This document shows positions 3,039 through 27,610 of a stretch of DNA of 36,958 bases, piece after piece. Within the stretch, counting starts at the first letter, position 1. Every line of letters begins with the position of its first letter. The notes under the pieces are model-generated. The model was not told the origin of the DNA and ran no database searches. It saw only the letters and a program-made list of their open reading frames with translations. The translations under genes and the position numbers were made by a program. The stretch lies in the IMG/VR virus record IMGVR_UViG_3300028800_000207, positions 1-36,958 of that record; one strand, given 5' to 3'. This stretch comes from a virus.

Positions 3039-3176
3039 ATGTATGTCTATCAAGATACCCATTGGCATGTTGTGGGGAGTGTTAAGGATTTTGAGTGTTG
3101 GAAGTTACCATGGGGCACCTGCGAAGATAGACATGATGGTGAACCGTGCGACACAGAATGTATTGAGGCACAGTGA
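3039..3176 (+). CDS. Small Cys/His/Trp-rich protein between the terminase genes
   Basis: A 45-aa protein with a strong ribosome site (GAGGAGG just upstream of ATG 3039). The frame is open back to an ATG at 2979 that overlaps the stop of the small terminase, giving 65 aa if translation is coupled. It has four cysteines in the second half (C..C..C..C spread over 22 residues) and several His and Trp residues, so zinc binding is possible. Its stop overlaps the GTG start of the large terminase, so translation of the two is probably coupled. No family recognised. Confidence 0.6.
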   Translation: MYVYQDTHWHVVGSVKDFECWKLPWGTCEDRHDGEPCDTECIEAQ

Positions 3177-4528
3177 AGGTCGAGACCAAAATTCATCTTA
3201 ATCGTTTTGTTCCGCGGTCTTACCAACTTCCTATTATTGATGCTCTTGAGAATAAGGGTTATCGGAAGATTATCTGCATTATGCCCCGACGAGCGGGTAA
3301 AGATGTGGTCGCCTTTAACCTGATGTTACGCGCTGCTTTACGTAAGGTTGGAGTTTATTATTACATTTTCCCAACTTACAGCCAGGCAAAAAAAGTAATT
3401 TGGGATTCGATAAATAATGACGGTCAGAAATTTTTAGACTATATTCCACCAGAGCTTATTGCGGGTTCTAATTCCCAGGAGATGAAGATAACGCTAACCA
3501 ATGGTTCGTTAATGCAACTTGTGGGCTCAGATAACGTGGATAGTTTAGTGGGAACTAACCCGCGCGGTTGTGTTTTTAGTGAGTATGCTCTGCAGGACCC
3601 CAGGGCCTATCAATTTATTAGGCCTATTTTGACAGCTAATGATGGGTGGGCGCTCTTTGTGTCTACTCCTCGTGGCAAGAATCACATGTGGGAGTTGTTT
3701 CAGATTGCGGAGAACTCGCCCGATTGGTTTGCGTACAAGCTTACCCTTGATGATACACAACACATTCCGCTCTGGGCCATTGAGAAAGAAATGGCTGAGG
3801 GCATTATGAGCCCTGATTTGGTTCAGCAGGAGTATTACACCTCATTTACCATGGGCGTTGAAGGGGCTTACTACACCAAGTACATAGACCGTATGCGCGT
3901 CAAGGGACAGATTGGGGATGTGCCTTGGGAACCTAGCTTTAAGGTGCATACTGCATGGGACCTTGGGGTGCGCGATAGTACAACGATTATATTCTTTCAG
4001 AATGTTGGGCAGACTGTTCGCATCATAGACTGCTACGAGAAGTCAAAAGAGGGGCTTGAGCACTATATACAGGTGTTACATTCAAAGCCCTACACGTACG
4101 GGAAGCACATAGCCCCTCATGATATTAAGGTTCGAGAGTTTACTTCTGGGGTAGCTCGTATCGAGAAGGCGCGGCAGCTGGGTATAAACTTCACGATAGC
4201 TCCTGATATATCCATTGTTGATGGCATTGAAGGAGTGCGTTCATCTTTGGCGAAGATATGGATTGATGAGCGTAACTGTAAGCCCCTTATCAAGGCGTTA
4301 GAAAACTATCGGCAAGAGTTTGATGCTAAGCGGCGTGTGTATAAGTCACAACCTTTGCATGATCACAATTCACATTTTGCGGATTGCATGCGCTATTTAT
4401 GTGTGTCACTACCTAAGACACGCGATGGATTGACACCAGAAGAGCTCGATAAGCGGTATATGGAAGCGATGATGGGTCCCAATTACAACATGCCCGCGGT
4501 GTTCCGCACAGATCTACCAGATTATTGA
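3173..4528 (+). CDS. terL: Terminase large subunit
   Basis: A 451-aa packaging ATPase/nuclease that drives DNA into the procapsid through the portal. The adenine motif RSYQLPII lies near residue 16, Walker A MPRRAGKD at 37-44, Walker B GCVFSEYA at 132-139 and the coupling motif VSTPRGKNHMWEL near 180. The C-terminal RNase H-like nuclease begins with AWDLGVRDST and ends with an aspartate in the DCMRYL segment near residue 405. The start is GTG, overlapping the upstream stop. The last 41 codons are repeated almost identically at 5774-5896, beyond an inserted cassette, so the present C-terminus may have been rebuilt. The final residues (AVFRTDLPDY) differ from the second copy (TKW). Confidence 0.95.
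   Translation: MKVETKIHLNRFVPRSYQLPIIDALENKGYRKIICIMPRRAGKDVVAFNLMLRAALRKVGVYYYIFPTYSQAKKVIWDSINNDGQKFLDYIPPELIAGSNSQEMKITLTNGSLMQLVGSDNVDSLVGTNPRGCVFSEYALQDPRAYQFIRPILTANDGWALFVSTPRGKNHMWELFQIAENSPDWFAYKLTLDDTQHIPLWAIEKEMAEGIMSPDLVQQEYYTSFTMGVEGAYYTKYIDRMRVKGQIGDVPWEPSFKVHTAWDLGVRDSTTIIFFQNVGQTVRIIDCYEKSKEGLEHYIQVLHSKPYTYGKHIAPHDIKVREFTSGVARIEKARQLGINFTIAPDISIVDGIEGVRSSLAKIWIDERNCKPLIKALENYRQEFDAKRRVYKSQPLHDHNSHFADCMRYLCVSLPKTRDGLTPEELDKRYMEAMMGPNYNMPAVFRTDLPDY
4386..4495 (+). repeat. Terminase 3'-end duplication, upstream copy
   Basis: This 110-bp segment matches 5775-5884 at 103 positions (seven mismatches). The two copies flank the cassette holding the RHH and alpha-CTD regulators. Six of the seven differences are synonymous in the terminase frame and one is Glu/Asp, so both copies seem to have evolved as coding sequence, probably in related phages, before being brought together. 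Confidence 0.9.
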
Positions 4529-4552
4529 CATCTTGTATATCGTTGATATACT
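4525..4552 (+). promoter_or_regulatory. Strong sigma70-like promoter with palindromic operator
   Basis: A perfect -35 TTGACA (4525-4530) overlaps the terminase stop codon. After 16 bp comes TATACT (4547-4552), a five-of-six match to the -10. A perfect 7-bp inverted repeat GTATATC-gtt-GATATAC (4535-4551) fills the spacer and enters the -10, which suggests repressor or activator control. It would drive the RHH and MerR/alpha-CTD genes, whose products are natural candidates to bind it. The remaining leader to 4853 holds a 28-codon hydrophobic frame without a ribosome site and the weak Cys-rich frame listed next. Confidence 0.65.
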
Positions 4553-4762
4553 TATCTTAGTTAAACAACTGGTGTTTAGAAAGAACTGGCCTAAAGAATA
4601 CATGAAACTATTGGATTAATTATGGATACCTATCTCTATTGTATTTTTCTAGTGCTGTTCTTTATGTCTGGTTTTAATATGGTAAAGAGGCGATGCTGCA
4701 TGAAATGACTTAAGTTTTGCGCCCGGGGCGCGTGTATATGTTCTCGCTCAAGAGATTGTTAG

Positions 4763-4897
4763 ATGAAGCTGTGTAAGTCTTGCTTTTGTGAGATAGCTGA
4801 ATATCTCATCTATTGTCACCGGTGCTGGATAGATTATTACGATAAGGAGACTCATGAAAAAACTAGTATCAATACGCATGGATCTCTCAATTCATGA
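4763..4897 (+). CDS. Possible 44-aa zinc-knuckle peptide
   Basis: The frame begins MKLCKSCFCE and has a second CHRC pair at residues 19-22, giving a CxxC...CxxC zinc-ribbon pattern. It overlaps the start of the RHH gene by 44 bases and has only a weak ribosome site. The spacing of cysteines is the only support; it could be a chance frame. Confidence 0.3.
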   Translation: MKLCKSCFCEIAEYLIYCHRCWIDYYDKETHEKTSINTHGSLNS

Positions 4898-5027
4898 CCG
4901 TATTATGCGGATTGTGTATTGGACCCCTGGATTAACATTTAACAAGGTGGTTAACAAGTTATTGGAAGAGTACATAGAGAAGTGTGAGGAGAATAGGGGA
5001 TCGAAGTTTCCTGAGAGGGTTCAGTAG
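4854..5027 (+). CDS. Short ribbon-helix-helix-like protein
   Basis: A 57-aa protein with AAGGAG (4844-4849) at good spacing before ATG. It starts KKLVSIRMDLSIHDRIMRIV, a short strand followed by a helix, then GLTFNKVVNKLLEEYIEKC, resembling the second helix of Arc/MetJ-type repressors that dimerise and insert a strand into DNA. Its TAG is one base before the ATG of the MerR/alpha-CTD gene, so the two are translationally coupled. A role as autorepressor at the palindrome at 4535-4551 is inferred. The fold call rests on pattern only. Confidence 0.65.
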   Translation: MKKLVSIRMDLSIHDRIMRIVYWTPGLTFNKVVNKLLEEYIEKCEENRGSKFPERVQ

Positions 5028-5028
5028 G

Positions 5029-5772
5029 ATGGATAAGCTGAGCGACTATTTGATGGTTAGAGAGGCGGCCGAATTACTTGGAGTCACCCCAAATACCATG
5101 AGAAATTGGGAGAGAGAGAAAAAAATTGTATCCTATCGCAATCCCATCAATAAATACCGCCTCTATAGAAAAGAAGATATTGATAAATTTATGCTGGTCA
5201 TAAAGGGAGAGCCTCCGGTGACTGATGCTGAATTGCAAAACAAAAAAGATAATGAAATAGCGCTTGCGAATCTTTATAAGCGCCAACAAATAGAGGCTGA
5301 TGAATGTGCCAAAAAAGAATTGGCGTCTCGCATGCGACGCATAGAAGAACTTCAAGCATTACTTACTGAAGCAAATAAAGAAATTGAGCGGTATAAACAC
5401 ATAGATAAAGAGCTTGAGAGTTATAAGCTTAAGGAGCGCGAATCGCAGGCAGCCGATCTTTGTGATCAGATACTTAAGATACTTTCTTCTGATGGCTCTT
5501 TTCTGGAAAAAGAAGATTTGTGTAGAAATATCTTGGGAATAAATGCCTCCGCTGGCACTCAGCTTGCCTCAAAAGAGCTCGACAATAGGCCGATAGATAT
5601 ACTCGAACTATCAGTTAGGGCACATAACTGTTTATTAGCTGCTAAATTTAATACTATCGGTGACATACAATGCATGGGAAAAGAGGGTCTGTTGCGCATA
5701 AAGAACTTTGGTAAGAAAAGTTACGAAGAAGTATTGATTGCGTGTCGTAGAAATAAAATAAAGATTAGTTAG
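5029..5772 (+). CDS. MerR-type HTH / coiled-coil / RNA polymerase alpha-CTD fusion regulator
   Basis: A 247-aa protein starting at ATG 5029, one base after the RHH stop; an upstream in-frame ATG at 4984 lies inside the RHH gene and is less likely. Residues 8-55 form a MerR/excisionase-like head (VREAAELLGVTPNTMRNWE, then YRLYRKEDIDKF). Residues 85-145 are a charged coiled coil. Residues 188-247 match the bacterial RNA polymerase alpha-subunit C-terminal domain: ILELSVRAHNCL, then TIGDI, then LLRIKNFGKKSYEE. By alignment from memory with E. coli alpha, R197, N200, G228, K230, S231 and E234 correspond to R265, N268, G296, K298, S299 and E302 (DNA contacts or nearby), and E193 to E261 (sigma contact). 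It may redirect or compete with host polymerase at promoters. The cassette has its own promoter and lies between terminase repeats. Confidence 0.8.
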   Translation: MDKLSDYLMVREAAELLGVTPNTMRNWEREKKIVSYRNPINKYRLYRKEDIDKFMLVIKGEPPVTDAELQNKKDNEIALANLYKRQQIEADECAKKELASRMRRIEELQALLTEANKEIERYKHIDKELESYKLKERESQAADLCDQILKILSSDGSFLEKEDLCRNILGINASAGTQLASKELDNRPIDILELSVRAHNCLLAAKFNTIGDIQCMGKEGLLRIKNFGKKSYEEVLIACRRNKIKIS

Positions 5773-5773
5773 C

Positions 5774-5896
5774 TGCATGCGCTATTTATGTGTTTCTTTA
5801 CCTAAGACACGCGACGGGCTGACACCAGAAGATCTCGATAAGCGGTATATGGAAGCGATGATGGGTCCCAATTACAACATGCCCACTAAGTGGTGA
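5774..5896 (+). pseudogene. Duplicated 3' end of the large terminase gene
   Basis: Forty codons plus stop, in the terminase frame, matching terminase residues from about 405 (CMRYL...) to NYNMP and then ending TKW. There is no start or ribosome site, so it is a remnant. Bases 5775-5884 match 4386-4495 with seven mismatches. It is probably the original terminase end left behind when the 4.5-5.77 kb cassette arrived with a replacement copy, or the reverse. Confidence 0.85.
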
Positions 5897-5958: not shown

Positions 5959-6014
5959 GAGTCCGAAAAGCGCCAACTTTTCGGACTCAAACTAGTAGGT
6001 CATTCGACCTTTTT
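5959..6014 (+). terminator. Tandem hairpins / terminator between cassette and portal gene
   Basis: A perfect 12-bp stem (5959-5970 with 5977-5988, loop six bases) is followed by a second hairpin AGGTC/GACCT (5997-6010) leading into TTTTT (6010-6014). Together they probably end transcription from the terminase and regulator cassette. Of the rest of 5897-6097 I see only a short GGAAC/GTTCC inverted repeat and a weak promoter-like TTGAAT near 6033. Confidence 0.65.
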
Positions 6015-6097
6015 GTGGAACAAAATCGTTCCGCTTGAATCAATAACTGCACGCAACTACTCTTGGTATGTTAAAAACATTGCCAGGAGTCCGTTTA

Positions 6098-8146
6098 ATG
6101 ATCTTCCCCCAGTTGGGCCCCCAATACTACAACGAGAAAGACAAGGCCATCTTATCAAAGATGGAGACGTTTTATGCCGAATCTATCACGATAAATCAGA
6201 GCTTCTGGGGAGAGGCTGACACCGATACTCGGTTTGAGGCTGGAGACCAGACCTTATGGAACGATCTCTATGGCAACCTTCCGGCAAACCGTCGCAGACA
6301 GTTTAATTTCAATCGCATAAGGCGCGTCATCCAGATGATCTCTGGGCACCAGCGACGCAATCGTAAATCTACCATCGTTACTCCCGTTGAGAACGCTGAT
6401 TCTGAGACTGCTGATCAGTTTACTAAAGTATTGATGTGGATTAATAACCAAGAGGGAGTGCTTGAGACCATATCAGAATCCTTCGAAGGCGCACTCGTTA
6501 CCGGTATGAATCTGCTGCAAGTATGGGTAGATTATCGTTCAGACCCCGTTTCAGGAAATATACGTGTCGACAACTGCTCATATAATAGTTTTCTTATTGA
6601 TCCTTACTTCCGTAAGCCAGATCTTTCTGATTGCAACTCCATTTGGAAACGAACCTTCCTAACCAAACGAGAAGTTCTGTCGCTGTTGCCCGCATACACC
6701 GATGAGATTATGGGAATGGTTGGTGGCGATAACGGAACAGGTAGAGACGGTAAATTTCAATTCTTGCCTGAATCTTATAATTACGGCATGAAAAATTTGA
6801 TGACCTATGATGAATTTTATTATAGAGATTATCGCTTGCAGCGTATGTTGGTTGATGCCGAGACTGGCGAGACTATGGAATGGCGCAGTGAGAACGAAGA
6901 AGGCTTACAGCGCTTTCTCAAACTATACCCACAAGTTACCGTTATTGAGCAAGAAATTCCTACGGTGCGCCTCGCTATTGTGGTACAGGGCAAGGTCATG
7001 TATGACGGCCCAAATCCTATGGGTATTGATAGCTATCCTTTCGTGCCTGTGCTTGCTTATTATCGGCCACAAATGCCATATTTTCCCTATCGCATCTCTG
7101 GCGTTGTACGGGGCCTACGGGATGCACAATATCTTTATGGACGAAGAAAAGTGATCGAATTAGACATTTTGGAGAGTCAAATTAACAGTGGGTTCATCTA
7201 TAAAGAGAACGCATTGGTCAATCCAAAAGATATTTTTTTGAGTGGTCAAGGGCGTGGCTTGGCACTTAAAGAAGAAGCCCAAATGACTGATGTTCAGCAG
7301 ATCGTTGCGCCACAGATACCGCCATCTATGATTGATTTATCCAAGATACTTGCTGATGAGATACAACAGATATCTGGAGTTAATGAAGAGCTGCTTGGTT
7401 CAGCGATGGACGATAAGGCGGGGGTGCTGTCGATGCTCAGACAAGGGGCTGGGCTGACTACCCTGCAGTCGCTTTTCGATCAACTGGATCGATCTCAGAA
7501 GCTGTTGGGTAAGATTATGTTGGATATCATACAGGCTAACTTCACACCGGGTAAGGTTAAGAAGATTCTTGAGGGTCAGGAGCCGACGGCTCAGTTCTAT
7601 AACAAAGCTTTTGGGAAGTATGATGCCAATGTTGAAGAGGGGCTTAACACAACGACGCAGAAGCAGATGCAATTTGCCCAGTTACTGCAATTGCGAGAAT
7701 CTGGGGTGCCCGTTCCTGATGAGGCCCTGCTTGAGTCGTGTACCATCCAGAATAAGAAAAAGCTTATTGAATCTATTCAGCAAGCTCAGCAAGCGCAGCA
7801 GCAGGCTGGACAGATGGCTCAACAACTGCAAATGCAAAAGCTGCAAGCGGATATTGAGCTCTCAAAAGCCCGCGCTACTGCGGATCAAGGCCTTGGTCTA
7901 GAGCGCGTATCTCGTGTTGAAGAGAACCAAGCGCTTGCTATAGAGCGTGAAGCCAAGGCGCGCGCTGATGATGACCTTGGATTCCTGAACAAGATTAAGG
8001 CGCTCAAAGAGATTGATGCTATGGACATCGATCATATTGCTCGTTTATTGGAACTTGAGCGTACTCTCAAAGAACAAGACAAGATGGCCCAAGAGGTAAC
8101 AACTCGTGACAAAACGTCACAGGTTAGTCAGCCACTTGTTGCGTAA
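6098..8146 (+). CDS. Portal protein, P22-like
   Basis: A 682-aa portal subunit; twelve copies form the channel at one capsid vertex. AGGAG at 6085-6089 selects ATG 6098 rather than 6068. The region RIRRVIQMISGHQRRNRKS (near residue 75) followed by ETADQFTKVL and the FEGALVTGMNLLQVW segment matches the P22-type portal family, as does the later DPYFRKPDLSD. The C-terminal 120 residues are Gln-rich, then Ala/Glu/Arg-rich, and probably form the long coiled-coil barrel. Length agrees with P22 portal (about 725 aa). It lies downstream of the terminator that closes the upstream cassette. Confidence 0.9.
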   Translation: MIFPQLGPQYYNEKDKAILSKMETFYAESITINQSFWGEADTDTRFEAGDQTLWNDLYGNLPANRRRQFNFNRIRRVIQMISGHQRRNRKSTIVTPVENADSETADQFTKVLMWINNQEGVLETISESFEGALVTGMNLLQVWVDYRSDPVSGNIRVDNCSYNSFLIDPYFRKPDLSDCNSIWKRTFLTKREVLSLLPAYTDEIMGMVGGDNGTGRDGKFQFLPESYNYGMKNLMTYDEFYYRDYRLQRMLVDAETGETMEWRSENEEGLQRFLKLYPQVTVIEQEIPTVRLAIVVQGKVMYDGPNPMGIDSYPFVPVLAYYRPQMPYFPYRISGVVRGLRDAQYLYGRRKVIELDILESQINSGFIYKENALVNPKDIFLSGQGRGLALKEEAQMTDVQQIVAPQIPPSMIDLSKILADEIQQISGVNEELLGSAMDDKAGVLSMLRQGAGLTTLQSLFDQLDRSQKLLGKIMLDIIQANFTPGKVKKILEGQEPTAQFYNKAFGKYDANVEEGLNTTTQKQMQFAQLLQLRESGVPVPDEALLESCTIQNKKKLIESIQQAQQAQQQAGQMAQQLQMQKLQADIELSKARATADQGLGLERVSRVEENQALAIEREAKARADDDLGFLNKIKALKEIDAMDIDHIARLLELERTLKEQDKMAQEVTTRDKTSQVSQPLVA

Positions 8147-15026: not shown

Positions 15027-16966
15027 ATGGCTATAACAACCACCAGTACACTGCCGGCACCAGTTCAGCAAAGCTTTAGCTATAAATTGCTAAGCGTCCC
15101 TGTGCCGAACATGATTCATAAAATTCCTGCGATGAAGAAGAATATGCCCCGTAATGGTGGTACTACGCTTCGTATGCGCCGGTATAATCCTTTAAACACT
15201 GCGATGGTTCCGTTGGGAAATAGCGGTGTCACGCCTCCGCCACAAAATCTGACCGCAGTCGATATCGATGCGAAGATTTCGTTTTACGGGACCTACGTAA
15301 GCATCAACGAGCAGGTGACGCTTGGATCTTGCTGAGGCGTCAATAAACCAAAGGTGATTACTTGGAAAACCTAAACCTTATCTAGCAATTAAGGCATGGC
15401 AACCAGAGGCAAGTGTTAATTATGATAATTGCGAACGTGAAGAGCTCTCATTTCTGCTTCAAGACGCTTGCGAATCTCAAGAATTTCTTGGGAAACCGCC
15501 GGGGTTCCTTGTCTGCCCTTTTGCGCACCTGTGTGCTTGAAAGTTGCACGCATTTGAAGCATGATTTCTGCCTGCCGCTTCTTGATGACCAGATAAGGCA
15601 TCATGATCTCGCAGAGATGAGTGCATCTATCGCCGCTCGCCATCCATCTGTAAACAGCTCGCCTGGAATTCTTAGGAGTTTGCTTAGCTGTATAGCTTGC
15701 GCGCCTTCCTCCAAATACATTAACAAGCCAATCAATCAATCCAATATCAGTATTAGTTACTTCGATATTGGTCTGATAATGAGGAGCTCCTGTTTTTGGA
15801 TTAGAGCTAAATGCGCCAATATATATCGATCCTTCTCCGTCAACTATTCCAGCAAGATACGCGATCTCTTCAATAGAATATTCTTTTCTTGTATAGGGAT
15901 ATCTGTTCATTTCGCCAGCTGCGTTATGTATTGTGAATATACATTACAGAATATCATAATTAATGGACAGCCGCAACGACTAAGCCCCTTGGCTCATAGC
16001 AATATGAGATGCGATAGTCTGTTCTCATGTGAAAACATGAGAGGGAGATCCGAAGAGTTTTCCCCGCCATATAGAAAATATATGGTCAATAAAAGTAACA
16101 GTATAATTACAAATAGTCAGAACCAAGATCCGGTTCTCAACGAATGCGCAGCACGTCTTGGTGTAAGTCTTCGCCAAACCGAAGATCAACTTACCCGAGA
16201 TATGTTGGCTTCAACTGCTGGGTTCATCAACTGTACCGGTGGTGTAAACGGTGATAATCCTACCGAGATTACCCGTTCTGATGTTGATACCGTTGTCCGT
16301 TCATTGTTGAACAACAACGCGTACACAATAATGGATAAACTTGTTGTCCATTTAAAATCTTCTCTGATTGACTTGGAAGCCCTATGGGGCAACAAGGGGC
16401 AAGCGCAAGCAGCCTGAACGACTAAGTGAGAAGACCTCGAAAGAGGATGCGATAGTCTGAACACTATGGAAACATAGTGAGGGAGATTCGAAGAAGTTTC
16501 CCCGCCCGAAAGGGTCATTAAAGTAACAGAATTGAACATTGAGGGTGAAGATAAATTTGGTACGGCTCCTGTTCGTGATGCCTACTTTGCACTTTGTTCA
16601 ACAAACCTCACGGGCAACTTGGACAACGTGGCAGGATTTATCCAAAAGAACCAATATCCAGCACCTATGAATGCATTGCGTTCAGAATGGGGTGCTATTG
16701 GTAACCTTCGGTTCCTCATTTCATCTATTGGTTCGACAACACTGCAAGGTTCATCACTCGGTGCGACCGTGTACAACATATTCTGTGTTGGTATGGAAGC
16801 ATACGCATGTATCGAGCAGGACGGATATAGCGCGAGCTTTATCTATCGTCCTCCAATATATGACGGACCATTGGCGCTTAACGCTTCTGTGGGCTATAAG
16901 TTCGCTGAAGTGCCACGCATCACCAATGATCTCTGGGTTATCAACTTACGTGCCACCCTTGCTTAA
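15027..16966 (+). CDS. Major capsid protein, N4-gp56 family, split by two group I introns
   Basis: Exons 15027-15322, 16117-16336 and 16535-16966 join to 315 codons plus stop. Exon 1 has the family pattern (NMIHKIPAMKKNMPRNGG, RMRRYNPL, YGTYVSINEQVTL); exon 2 continues QNQDPVLNECAARLG, then TRDMLAS; exon 3 begins NIEGEDKFGTAPVRDAYF. The first junction falls in a Leu codon (CT|T), the second between Asp and Asn. Frames close exactly, and the joined protein runs without gap against what I recall of the family. Unspliced, translation stops after exon 1, giving a useless 102-aa product. AAGGAG at 15014-15019 sets the start. The protein forms the icosahedral shell. Confidence 0.9.
15323..16116 (+). 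mobile_element. Group I intron 1 in the capsid gene (794 nt)
   Basis: P1 pairs exon GACGCT (15317-15322, U-G at the splice site) with GGCGTC (15336-15341). P10 pairs exon 2 TCAG (16117-16120) with CTGA (15332-15335). P7 is GACTA (15978-15982) with TAGTC (16015-16019). P8 (15993-16008) has a GCAA loop and P9 (16024-16041) a GAAA loop. The last intron base is G. A homing endonuclease gene lies in the P6 extension on the opposite strand. Subgroup not determined. Confidence 0.9.
15416..15910 (-). CDS. LAGLIDADG homing endonuclease, antisense within intron 1
   Basis: A 164-aa protein with one LAGLIDADG motif, LAGIVDGEG at residues 19-27, whose final acid would bind the metal; single-motif enzymes act as dimers on near-palindromic sites. 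Downstream, IEVTNTDIGLIDWLVNVFGG is typical of the fold's second part. It is encoded opposite to the capsid transcript, so it needs its own promoter; none is obvious. Its stop falls within the P6 stem of the intron. It probably cuts intronless capsid genes and spreads the intron. A plus-strand frame through the same region (15413-16417) is not a gene. Confidence 0.85.
   Translation of the reverse strand: MNRYPYTRKEYSIEEIAYLAGIVDGEGSIYIGAFSSNPKTGAPHYQTNIEVTNTDIGLIDWLVNVFGGRRASYTAKQTPKNSRRAVYRWMASGDRCTHLCEIMMPYLVIKKRQAEIMLQMRATFKHTGAQKGRQGTPAVSQEILEIRKRLEAEMRALHVRNYHN
16337..16534 (+). mobile_element. Group I intron 2 in the capsid gene (198 nt, no ORF)
   Basis: P1 pairs exon AATGGAT (16330-16336) with GTCCATT (16346-16352), U-G at the splice site. 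P10 pairs AACA (16535-16538) with TGTT (16342-16345). P7 is GACTA (16420-16424) with TAGTC (16453-16457). P8 (16435-16446) and P9 (16462-16479) both have GAAA loops. The last base is G. From P7 onward it is very similar to intron 1, so the two share ancestry. It carries no endonuclease gene. Confidence 0.88.
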
Positions 16967-23170: not shown

Positions 23171-23974
23171 ATGAAGCCCTGTAAGACCTGTGGTGAACTT
23201 TTTATTGTGAAAAAGAGAAGAATAAAGTTCTGTTCGCAAAAATGCATACGATATGATGGCCCCGATGAGCTAAAGAGGGGAGATCTTTTTCTAAATAAAC
23301 ATGAAGAACTTCAGCGCCTTATGAAGCTATATGATAGGAAAGTTTTAAAGAATCCTGCGGGCTGTTGGTCGTGGATTGATATAAAAAGTGGATATGGAAC
23401 AATAAAGTGCAACAACAAGATAATAAGTGGACATGTTGCTAGTTGGTTGATCAACTATGGAGAAATTCCAGAAGGTATGTGGGTTCTGCATTCATGTGAT
23501 AATAGATCATGTTCAAATCCAACACACTTATTTTTAGGATCGCCTAAGGATAATTCTCGGGACATGATATCCAAAAAAAGAAATAATCCTGTACGTGGAT
23601 CGAAGCATTATAGTGCAAAATTAAATGAGTTACAGGTATCCGAGATTAAAAAATTACTTGAATTAGGTTACTCGCAATATTTAATCTCTAGGCATTATAC
23701 AGTTAGCAGATCATCGATAGAAGATATTAAATTTAAAAGGACTTGGGTAGCAGTTCCTTCAGCACTTAATGTACCTTCTATTGGTAAAACAAAAAAAGAA
23801 TATTTCCAAAGGGGTGAGGATAATTCCTCCTGTAAGCTAGATATACTTAAAGTTCGCGAGATAAGAGAACTTATTTCTGCTGGATGGTCACAACCAAGGA
23901 TAGCTCAAAAATATGGTGTCAGCCGGGGAGCAATTCAGGGTATTAAAGATGGTAGAAACTGGAAGGATGTCTAA
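23171..23974 (+). CDS. HNH homing endonuclease, free-standing, in the tail operon
   Basis: A 267-aa protein. Four cysteines (C4, C7, C21, C25) form an N-terminal zinc finger. Residues 83-135 are an HNH nuclease: SGHVASWLINYGE, VLHSCDNRSCSNPTHL and LGSPKDNSRDM. Two similar helix-turn-helix repeats follow (about 146-188 and 222-265; for example SQPRIAQKYGVSRGAI), probably for target recognition. It is AT-rich compared with its neighbours, and its stop overlaps the next start (TAATG). It probably invades the gap between the nozzle and next tail gene in related phages. Confidence 0.85.
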   Translation: MKPCKTCGELFIVKKRRIKFCSQKCIRYDGPDELKRGDLFLNKHEELQRLMKLYDRKVLKNPAGCWSWIDIKSGYGTIKCNNKIISGHVASWLINYGEIPEGMWVLHSCDNRSCSNPTHLFLGSPKDNSRDMISKKRNNPVRGSKHYSAKLNELQVSEIKKLLELGYSQYLISRHYTVSRSSIEDIKFKRTWVAVPSALNVPSIGKTKKEYFQRGEDNSSCKLDILKVREIRELISAGWSQPRIAQKYGVSRGAIQGIKDGRNWKDV

Positions 23975-26778: not shown

Positions 26779-26886
26779 TCATTCACCCCAAAGCAACTTA
26801 TCCCATCGCACTAGTAGTTTATATATAAATACTGGCGCGATAGTGATAGAAATAATCATTCTGAAGAATCTTGCTAGATCACTCAT
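26779..26886 (-). CDS. 35-aa single-span membrane peptide
   Basis: The frame [20 protein letters not shown] continues into a Trp-rich basic end. One membrane helix (about 9-25) is predicted. Its ATG overlaps the stop of the HNH gene (TATGAGTGA), so it lies in the minus-strand unit RHH-HNH-peptide. No ribosome site beyond the coupling; short length limits confidence. Confidence 0.4.
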
Positions 26887-26896
26887 ATTTTTGCTC
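26879..26896. repeat. Short direct repeat at the HNH insertion (pairs with 27619-27636)
   Basis: Sixteen of 18 bases agree, and both copies encode a C-terminal EQKYE plus stop on the minus strand. They bracket the HNH gene. Confidence 0.6.
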
Positions 26897-27610
26897 ACGT
26901 TGTACTAGTTGCCCCATTTTGTGGAGTTTTCTACTATATTCCTTAACTATGTGAATACTGATCAAGAGCTTTGATGCTATTTCTTTAAGTTTAATTTTAT
27001 CCTTTAGTTCTTTTATTTTTTGCTGATGGCACTCATTTATTATTTTATTGTGTGGCGATACCCCTTTGGGGAATTGTCCTTTCATTCTTCCTTTATTTTT
27101 GGCATCGAGCATGTTTTCTTTTGGTGTTCCTAAAAAAAGATGTGATGGATTAGAGCATATCGGATTGTCGCAATGGTGACACACATATAATCCAGGTTTT
27201 ATTGGGCCATGATGAATAATCCATGATGCCCTATGTGCTCCTATTTTCTTGTTTGTCCCTTGGGAAATAGAGCCATATCCATTCGACATAATTGTACCGC
27301 TCCACCCCCAGCATCCATCTTTAATTATTACATATTGTTCATAGAATTCTTTCATTCTTCTTATTTTTTCTTTTGGTGATATTCGAGAGCCAGTTGTTTT
27401 GCATAATATGGAACAATATTTACCCATACCATTATGTTTATAGTACTCAAACACTATTGAACAAAAAGAGCATGTTGCTTTAATTTTTAAATCAGGATTT
27501 GCCGTGATACTATTTTTTATTCCTAAGCACTTCAAAGAGCAATAAGAGGCCCTTTTTGAGGGCTTACTTTTGAATTCTCGCTGGCAAATTAAACAATTTT
27601 TGGTGATCAT
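26879..27610 (-). CDS. HNH homing endonuclease with two zinc fingers
   Basis: A 243-aa protein. Two Cys4 fingers (about 6-27 and 47-70) precede an HNH domain ([39 protein letters not shown]). A helix-turn-helix-like tail follows ([18 protein letters not shown]). It is related to the endonuclease at 23171 but has an extra finger. Strong AT bias. It lies between the RHH gene and the 35-aa peptide; its final residues EQKYE and stop repeat those of the RHH gene, marking an insertion site. Confidence 0.85.

Follow-up and report, generated by a model that had tools for sequence, protein, structure and literature searches.

The window analysed here, the whole 36,958 bases of an IMG/VR virus record, raises the question of how a phage came to carry the 3' end of its terminase large subunit gene (terL) twice, once in the gene itself and once beyond a small cassette of regulator-like genes. 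The gain of a single gene between tightly packed essential phage genes is usually inferred from mosaic boundaries. A duplicated gene end is a readable scar that gives both the joint and a rate; it makes the model of illegitimate recombination plus selection testable by counting and is a way to find recently acquired cargo.

The repeated terL end and the cassette between its copies

The terL gene of the window (3173-4528, plus strand) is intact, matches phrog_2 (E 3e-31) and phrog_2472 (8e-47), and has 21 tblastn relatives at 52-76% identity. The earlier note had described a 110-bp segment of terL, beginning at position 4386, that is repeated on the far side of a regulator cassette. The duplication is borne out, but the segment was one base short; by repeat search and codon comparison it starts at 4385. 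The copies, both on the plus strand, are 111 nt long and identical at 104 positions (94%). Copy 1 (4385-4495) corresponds to terL codons 405-441 and copy 2 (5774-5884) is a stranded fragment of a terL 3' end, which is also matched by a profile of terL C-termini (E 4e-16). Comparison of the window's terL with its own terL-portal gap gave an E-value of 8e-46, which is far past chance. The seven mismatches fall in seven codons, six of them synonymous and one changing E to D; all seven lie within the first 60 nt of the repeat and the last 51 nt are identical, a clustering with a naive probability of 0.013. Past the repeat, copy 1 continues to the full terL end, ...NMPAVFRTDLPDY, whereas copy 2 continues to ...NMPTKW, the differing stretch at 5885-5895 (plus strand) coding TKW and a stop codon. 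Copy 2 begins one base past the stop codon of the ORF at 5029-5772, and an ATG at 5777, 4 nt past that stop, opens a frame of 39 codons in it. Between copy 2 and the portal gene is a terminator-like hairpin with a T run (5997-6010, plus strand), which is a consensus match only. The portal gene, of the P22 type (6068-8146, plus strand; Pfam P22_portal, 1.2e-70), is the right border of the cargo slot.

The cassette opens with a sigma70-like promoter, TTGACA-16-TATACT with TG before the -10 box (4525-4552, plus strand), that spans the terL stop codon; it is a consensus match at 11 of 12 positions, and 0.045 such sites are expected per Markov-1 resample of the region. A small ORF of 57 aa (4854-5027, plus strand), ribbon-helix-helix-like (RHH) by eye, follows; it has a weak match to phrog_5118 (E 0.057) and no Pfam match. 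The last gene (5029-5772, plus strand) codes for a regulator-like protein of 247 aa with an HTH_17/MerR domain (residues 8-55) and an RNA polymerase alpha-CTD (181-235); the part between the two resembles, by eye, a coiled coil. The Pfam matches are to RNA_pol_A_CTD (3.7e-18) and HTH_17 (2.6e-9), and the best solved-structure match is 8syi, the RNA polymerase alpha subunit (1.4e-10 over 185-246), with 3qao matching residues 7-58 (4.9e-4). The GC content of the cassette is 0.386 as against 0.455 in terL and 0.459 in the portal gene. Its function, presumably regulatory, is a prediction from sequence.

When the 247-aa protein was used as a probe, 17 pattern matches were found in viral contigs, none of them a relative, and searches of phages and plasmids gave single-domain matches only. 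Judged by titles and abstract starts, no paper among the matches listed is evidently on a phage fusion of alpha-CTD and MerR. Three different phage proteins with an alpha-CTD were found in all, in the window (5029-5772), in L004 (3715-4176; 3.5e-13) and in L114 (4457-5005; 2.4e-7), and only that of the window has a MerR-type HTH. The L004 protein adjoins a repeat of a gene start and the L114 protein a repeat of another gene's end, so that all three lie by gene-edge repeats; the number is small and L114 surfaced partly because it lies between repeats.

It had been suggested that the arrangement reflects a route used by mobile elements. A self-moving element is not supported, since no transposase, integrase, homing endonuclease or recombinase of its own was recognised in the two cassette ORFs with Pfam and PHROG, and the HTH of the 247-aa protein gave only weak matches to excisionase and transposase HTH profiles. 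A group I intron or an intein in the window's terL was also considered, but no ribozyme or splicing domain was recognised at the insertion: the window has no Rfam match, Pfam matched no intein domain in terL, and the terL frame closes before the cassette.

Second terL ends in related phages

TerL and portal searches of viral contigs, plus one search of genome contigs, yielded 163 loci in which a terL 3' end is present, which reduce to 128 distinct loci at 97% identity of the last 300 nt. The scan of genome contigs with a TerL alignment contributed 24 loci, the six best of which were 33-42% identical. After removal of one locus from outside the viral collections 127 remain, and in 126 of them the terL-portal gap reaches at least 60 nt. 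The gap is a variable cargo slot: in the 118 of 128 distinct loci in which the portal start is also present it measures 54 to 3876 nt (median 1074.5), and these 118 gaps hold 256 plus-strand ORFs of at least 60 aa that fall into 175 clusters, 149 of them singletons. The terL-portal gaps searched in related loci gave no homologue of the window's cassette, and matches elsewhere cover the HTH region only (L031, L053, L087 and L128). The DNA flanking the two copies had no match in the first 21 relatives, nor in all loci. The search for a donor or an empty sister of the window phage found none, the nearest relative by TerL probe being 76% identical in TerL.

Recurrence was tested by comparing each terL, up to 1350 nt of it, with its own gap at E 1e-4 and a fixed search space. 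A second copy of the locus's own terL 3' end was present in the gap of 11 of the 126 distinct viral loci, about 9% (the window, L035, L072, L101, L114, L124, L137, L145, L158, L171 and L179), and in all 11 the matched segment was restricted to the last 144 nt of the gene. None was seen in the other 115 at the sensitivity used. These 115 loci agree with the expectation that some relatives would lack the insert and have a single terL end, but no close sister of the window phage is among them. The count includes L101 on a 21-nt match only; a scan without the control had given 10/128, and the controlled scan adds L101. In L114, which has no portal match, the gap was taken as 3 kb. Because L137 and L171 share one cassette, the 11 loci represent at most 10 events. 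In the cross control, in which each terL was compared with every other gap, 88 of 16,002 pairs matched, and in 60 of these the match was to one of the two long copies, that of the window or that of L035. The start of copy 2 scatters from 21 to 144 nt before the stop codon across loci, and most loci other than the window keep 21-81 nt. The same test at other gene edges gave 5/97 for the terL start against upstream DNA, 2/111 for the portal start against the gap, and 2/85 for the portal end against downstream DNA, one of the two near the gene end. Plain self-comparison found direct repeats in 32/128 loci, several at gene ends or starts and not all of the stranded-end kind.

The cargo beside the stranded tails varies: L035 has a LAGLIDADG relative, L158 a Fic protein (5.1e-7) and L072 a weak match to DUF551 (0.025), others being unmatched; in L072 and L137 a cargo ORF runs in frame into the tail copy and ends with it. 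From 32 nt before the terL stop codon onwards, L137 and L171 agree at 99.6% over 1578 nt, whereas their terLs upstream of this shared piece are 72% identical. A separate observation in the terL-portal gap is a DNA methylase gene in L096 (2730-4934; N6_N4_Mtase, 6.2e-35) that lies between the copies of a 96-nt direct repeat of 98% identity. Parts of the L147 gap resemble the terLs of other phages (cross matches from L015 and L026) and may be remnants of a second terL.

Second matches resembling copy 2 in L015/L016, L026, L060, L063, L071, L101 and L154 were rejected as duplications because they are intein splits. These are eight records, or seven viruses when L015 and L016 count as a single virus. 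The terL inteins at codon 402/403 lie at L026:2710-3747, L060:3-2075, L063:1864-2907, L071:3000-4058, L101:1581-2639 and L154:4602-5663, that of L060 matching Pfam Intein_splicing at 2.2e-10. The DNA of these six inteins also codes, in another frame, for an HNH endonuclease of 208-221 codons that overlaps a splicing block (HNH_3 3.7e-11 in L060 and 4.6e-14 in L026). All six intein frames are stop-free, and out of 2000 trials in which the HNH codons were permuted synonymously, 6 to 384 left them open. The arrangement resembles that of the hidden HNH in the ShiLan insertion which, as described in PMC11855218, is without splicing domains. These inteins with an overlapping HNH may be more novel than the finding on terL ends. 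The window itself has a LAGLIDADG ORF (15416-15910; Pfam 2.9e-5) on the minus strand amid plus-strand genes, with close homologues in L073/L074 and another relative in the terL-portal gap there (L074:3699-4193), and two HNH endonuclease ORFs at 23171-23974 (plus strand) and 26879-27610 (minus strand; HNH_3 1.9e-9 and 3.5e-10, respectively).

Origin of the two ends

The earlier note proposed that the cassette was acquired together with a replacement terminase end from a relative, and took the second copy, ending in TKW, for that replacement. The first part agrees with the lack of a cassette homologue in the gaps of the relatives, with the 115 of 126 loci without a second end, with the mostly synonymous differences, and with a layout that fits known insertions that replace a gene end. 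The second part is not supported, because TKW is not obviously the incoming end: of 127 terLs, a number that includes the window's, 38 have at their end an FRxDxPxY-type motif as copy 1 does, and none ends in TKW. Judged from these sequences, AVFRTDLPDY is the family-typical end and TKW the odd one. Nucleotide similarity did not settle which end is ancestral, 54 of 113 relatives being nearer copy 1 and 43 nearer copy 2 with 16 ties, and a test by nucleotide state at the seven sites gave no decision. Since the end of copy 1 is family-typical, it is likelier that the stranded copy by the portal gene represents the older end, or a relic shortened by truncation; either TKW was the unusual end of the resident's terL, or sequence was lost on both sides of copy 2.

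The codon differences between copies bear on where they diverged. Pooled over 10 loci, with L171 left out because its cassette is common with L137, 20 of 26 are synonymous and six non-synonymous. If the copies had arisen by duplication in place, with copy 1 purified and copy 2 neutral since then, the probability of the pooled count would be 1e-5 to 5e-4, depending on the transition weight, and that of the window alone 0.008-0.029. The count of 20/26 indicates that most of the divergence between the copies arose while each was a coding end in a genome of its own, and this bias, together with the sharing of cassette plus tail by L137 and L171, makes recombination between related phages the better account.

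The explanation that we favor, and regard as probable, is therefore that related phages recombined and that the cassette arrived in this way along with a functional terL end, the former end being left stranded. The donor would be a related phage that carried the cassette, a moron-like unit of promoter, RHH-like ORF and MerR-type HTH/alpha-CTD protein, behind its own terL, and the cassette would have entered the slot between terL and portal with this exchange. The left joint presumably lies somewhere in terL, so that the incoming DNA would supply the cassette and the working 3' end, copy 1. The right joint, illegitimate or micro-homologous, would lie near codon 405 of the resident terL and would strand the last codons of the resident, copy 2, between cassette and portal gene. 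Selection would have kept the product because terL stayed whole. The same type of event would recur in this phage group with other cargo, and the fact that it recurs with cargo that is unrelated speaks for ordinary phage recombination plus selection. Some observations stand against this explanation. The proximal clustering of differences in the window and L035 is not predicted by a simple close-relative donor, no donor or empty sister was found, L145 (0/1 synonymous) and L179 (0/3) go against the synonymous trend, and the L145 copies, 99.3% identical over 139 nt, fit duplication in situ equally well. More tentatively, the terL 3' end and other gene edges may form a standing recombination joint, at which single-gene cassettes made of a neighbour-gene tail plus cargo, the different alpha-CTD proteins included, circulate; each arrival would replace the neighbour's end and strand the old one, and the repeat would let the cassette leave again.

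An unlikely alternative is that a homing endonuclease gene with a replacement C-terminus cut terL near its last nuclease motif and inserted together with a recoded, uncuttable terL end, the endonuclease of the window having since been lost or replaced by the regulator. It would account for the proximal synonymous recoding in the window and L035, and terL codons 402/403, the intein site in the eight records named above, are only codons away from the start of copy 2 in the window (405) and in L035 (407-411). The L035 ORF that abuts copy 2 is matched by a LAGLIDADG profile built without it (E 6e-6), but its protein of 162 aa is without the acidic residue of the motif (by eye), has no Pfam match and, as a probe, found only L035 itself. 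A mirror case at the terL 5' end is seen in L007 (5104-6144), where an orphan terL N-terminus is followed by an ORF that looks HNH-like by eye and then by another terL start, whose frame stops at 6123 and reopens at 6144, and there is a precedent in fungal mitochondria (PMC3630166). We rate homing low because no endonuclease domain was recognised between the window copies with Pfam and PHROG and because the right joints scatter over the terL tail, copy 2 starting at many positions across loci and not at one site; in the other loci, most of the cargo cannot be recognised as an endonuclease.

It is improbable that slippage or template switching duplicated the terL tail in tandem in situ and that a cassette was then inserted, or grew, between the copies. 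High identity of the copies, up to that of L145, is what such a duplication would produce, but the synonymous bias is not, nor are the ends, which differ past the repeat in both the window and L035, or the presence of one common piece of cassette and tail in L137 and L171. It is very doubtful that copy 2 is kept for a role, either as a 39-codon ORF translated by reinitiation after the regulator stop or as homology for an excision that restores a TKW-ending terL. Its frame is open, with the ATG 4 nt past the regulator stop, and a crossover from one copy to the other would yield a hybrid terL with an open frame, but most other loci keep 21-81 nt only. Although the window is a virus record from IMG/VR, an assembly artefact of the metagenome is highly improbable because the copies differ at seven sites and similar repeats occur in other contigs of the same group.

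Relation to known systems

Insertions with this anatomy have been described in mycobacteriophages (PMC3029335). The 18 C-terminal residues of Island3 gene 68 are closely related to those of gene 67, the common sequence measuring 60 bp, and in LRRHood 29-bp repeats surround a 1.35-kb insert; the relatives Brujita and Cali have a single copy. As described there, Island3 and LRRHood have, like the window, an extra gene or genes between direct repeats of a neighbour gene's 3' end; unlike the window, they concern genes other than terL, have a known empty relative, and have repeats shorter than 111 nt. The window also resembles the phage morons of that description in having additional ORFs and a promoter-like site lodged between conserved genes, on DNA that is missing at the same place in relatives (no cassette homologue was found in the gaps of other loci). 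The morons described there are flanked by a promoter and a terminator; in the window the promoter-like (4525-4552) and terminator-like (5997-6010) sites are consensus matches only. The duplicated gene end of the window is not part of the moron description in that source. Neither cassette ORF is a recognisable recombinase or transposase, such as a self-mobile element would carry.

The mORF hybrids of fungal mitochondria reported in PMC3630166 (atp6 in Allomyces and Glomus, and atp9, cox2 and nad3 in Glomus) are an essential gene with a foreign C-terminal end plus a cargo ORF, the native C-terminus being stranded downstream with largely synonymous divergence. A displaced end downstream with mostly synonymous divergence is likewise present in the window, but the cargo of the hybrids in that report is a homing endonuclease, whereas between the window's ends none was recognised and only HTH/MerR and alpha-CTD families were matched. 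Literature searches found no paper on a partial duplication of a terminase gene beside cargo or a homing endonuclease. On present evidence the window does not hold a new kind of element; its anatomy is already known from these systems, and what is new, as far as the literature searches tell, is the terL site and the controlled count.
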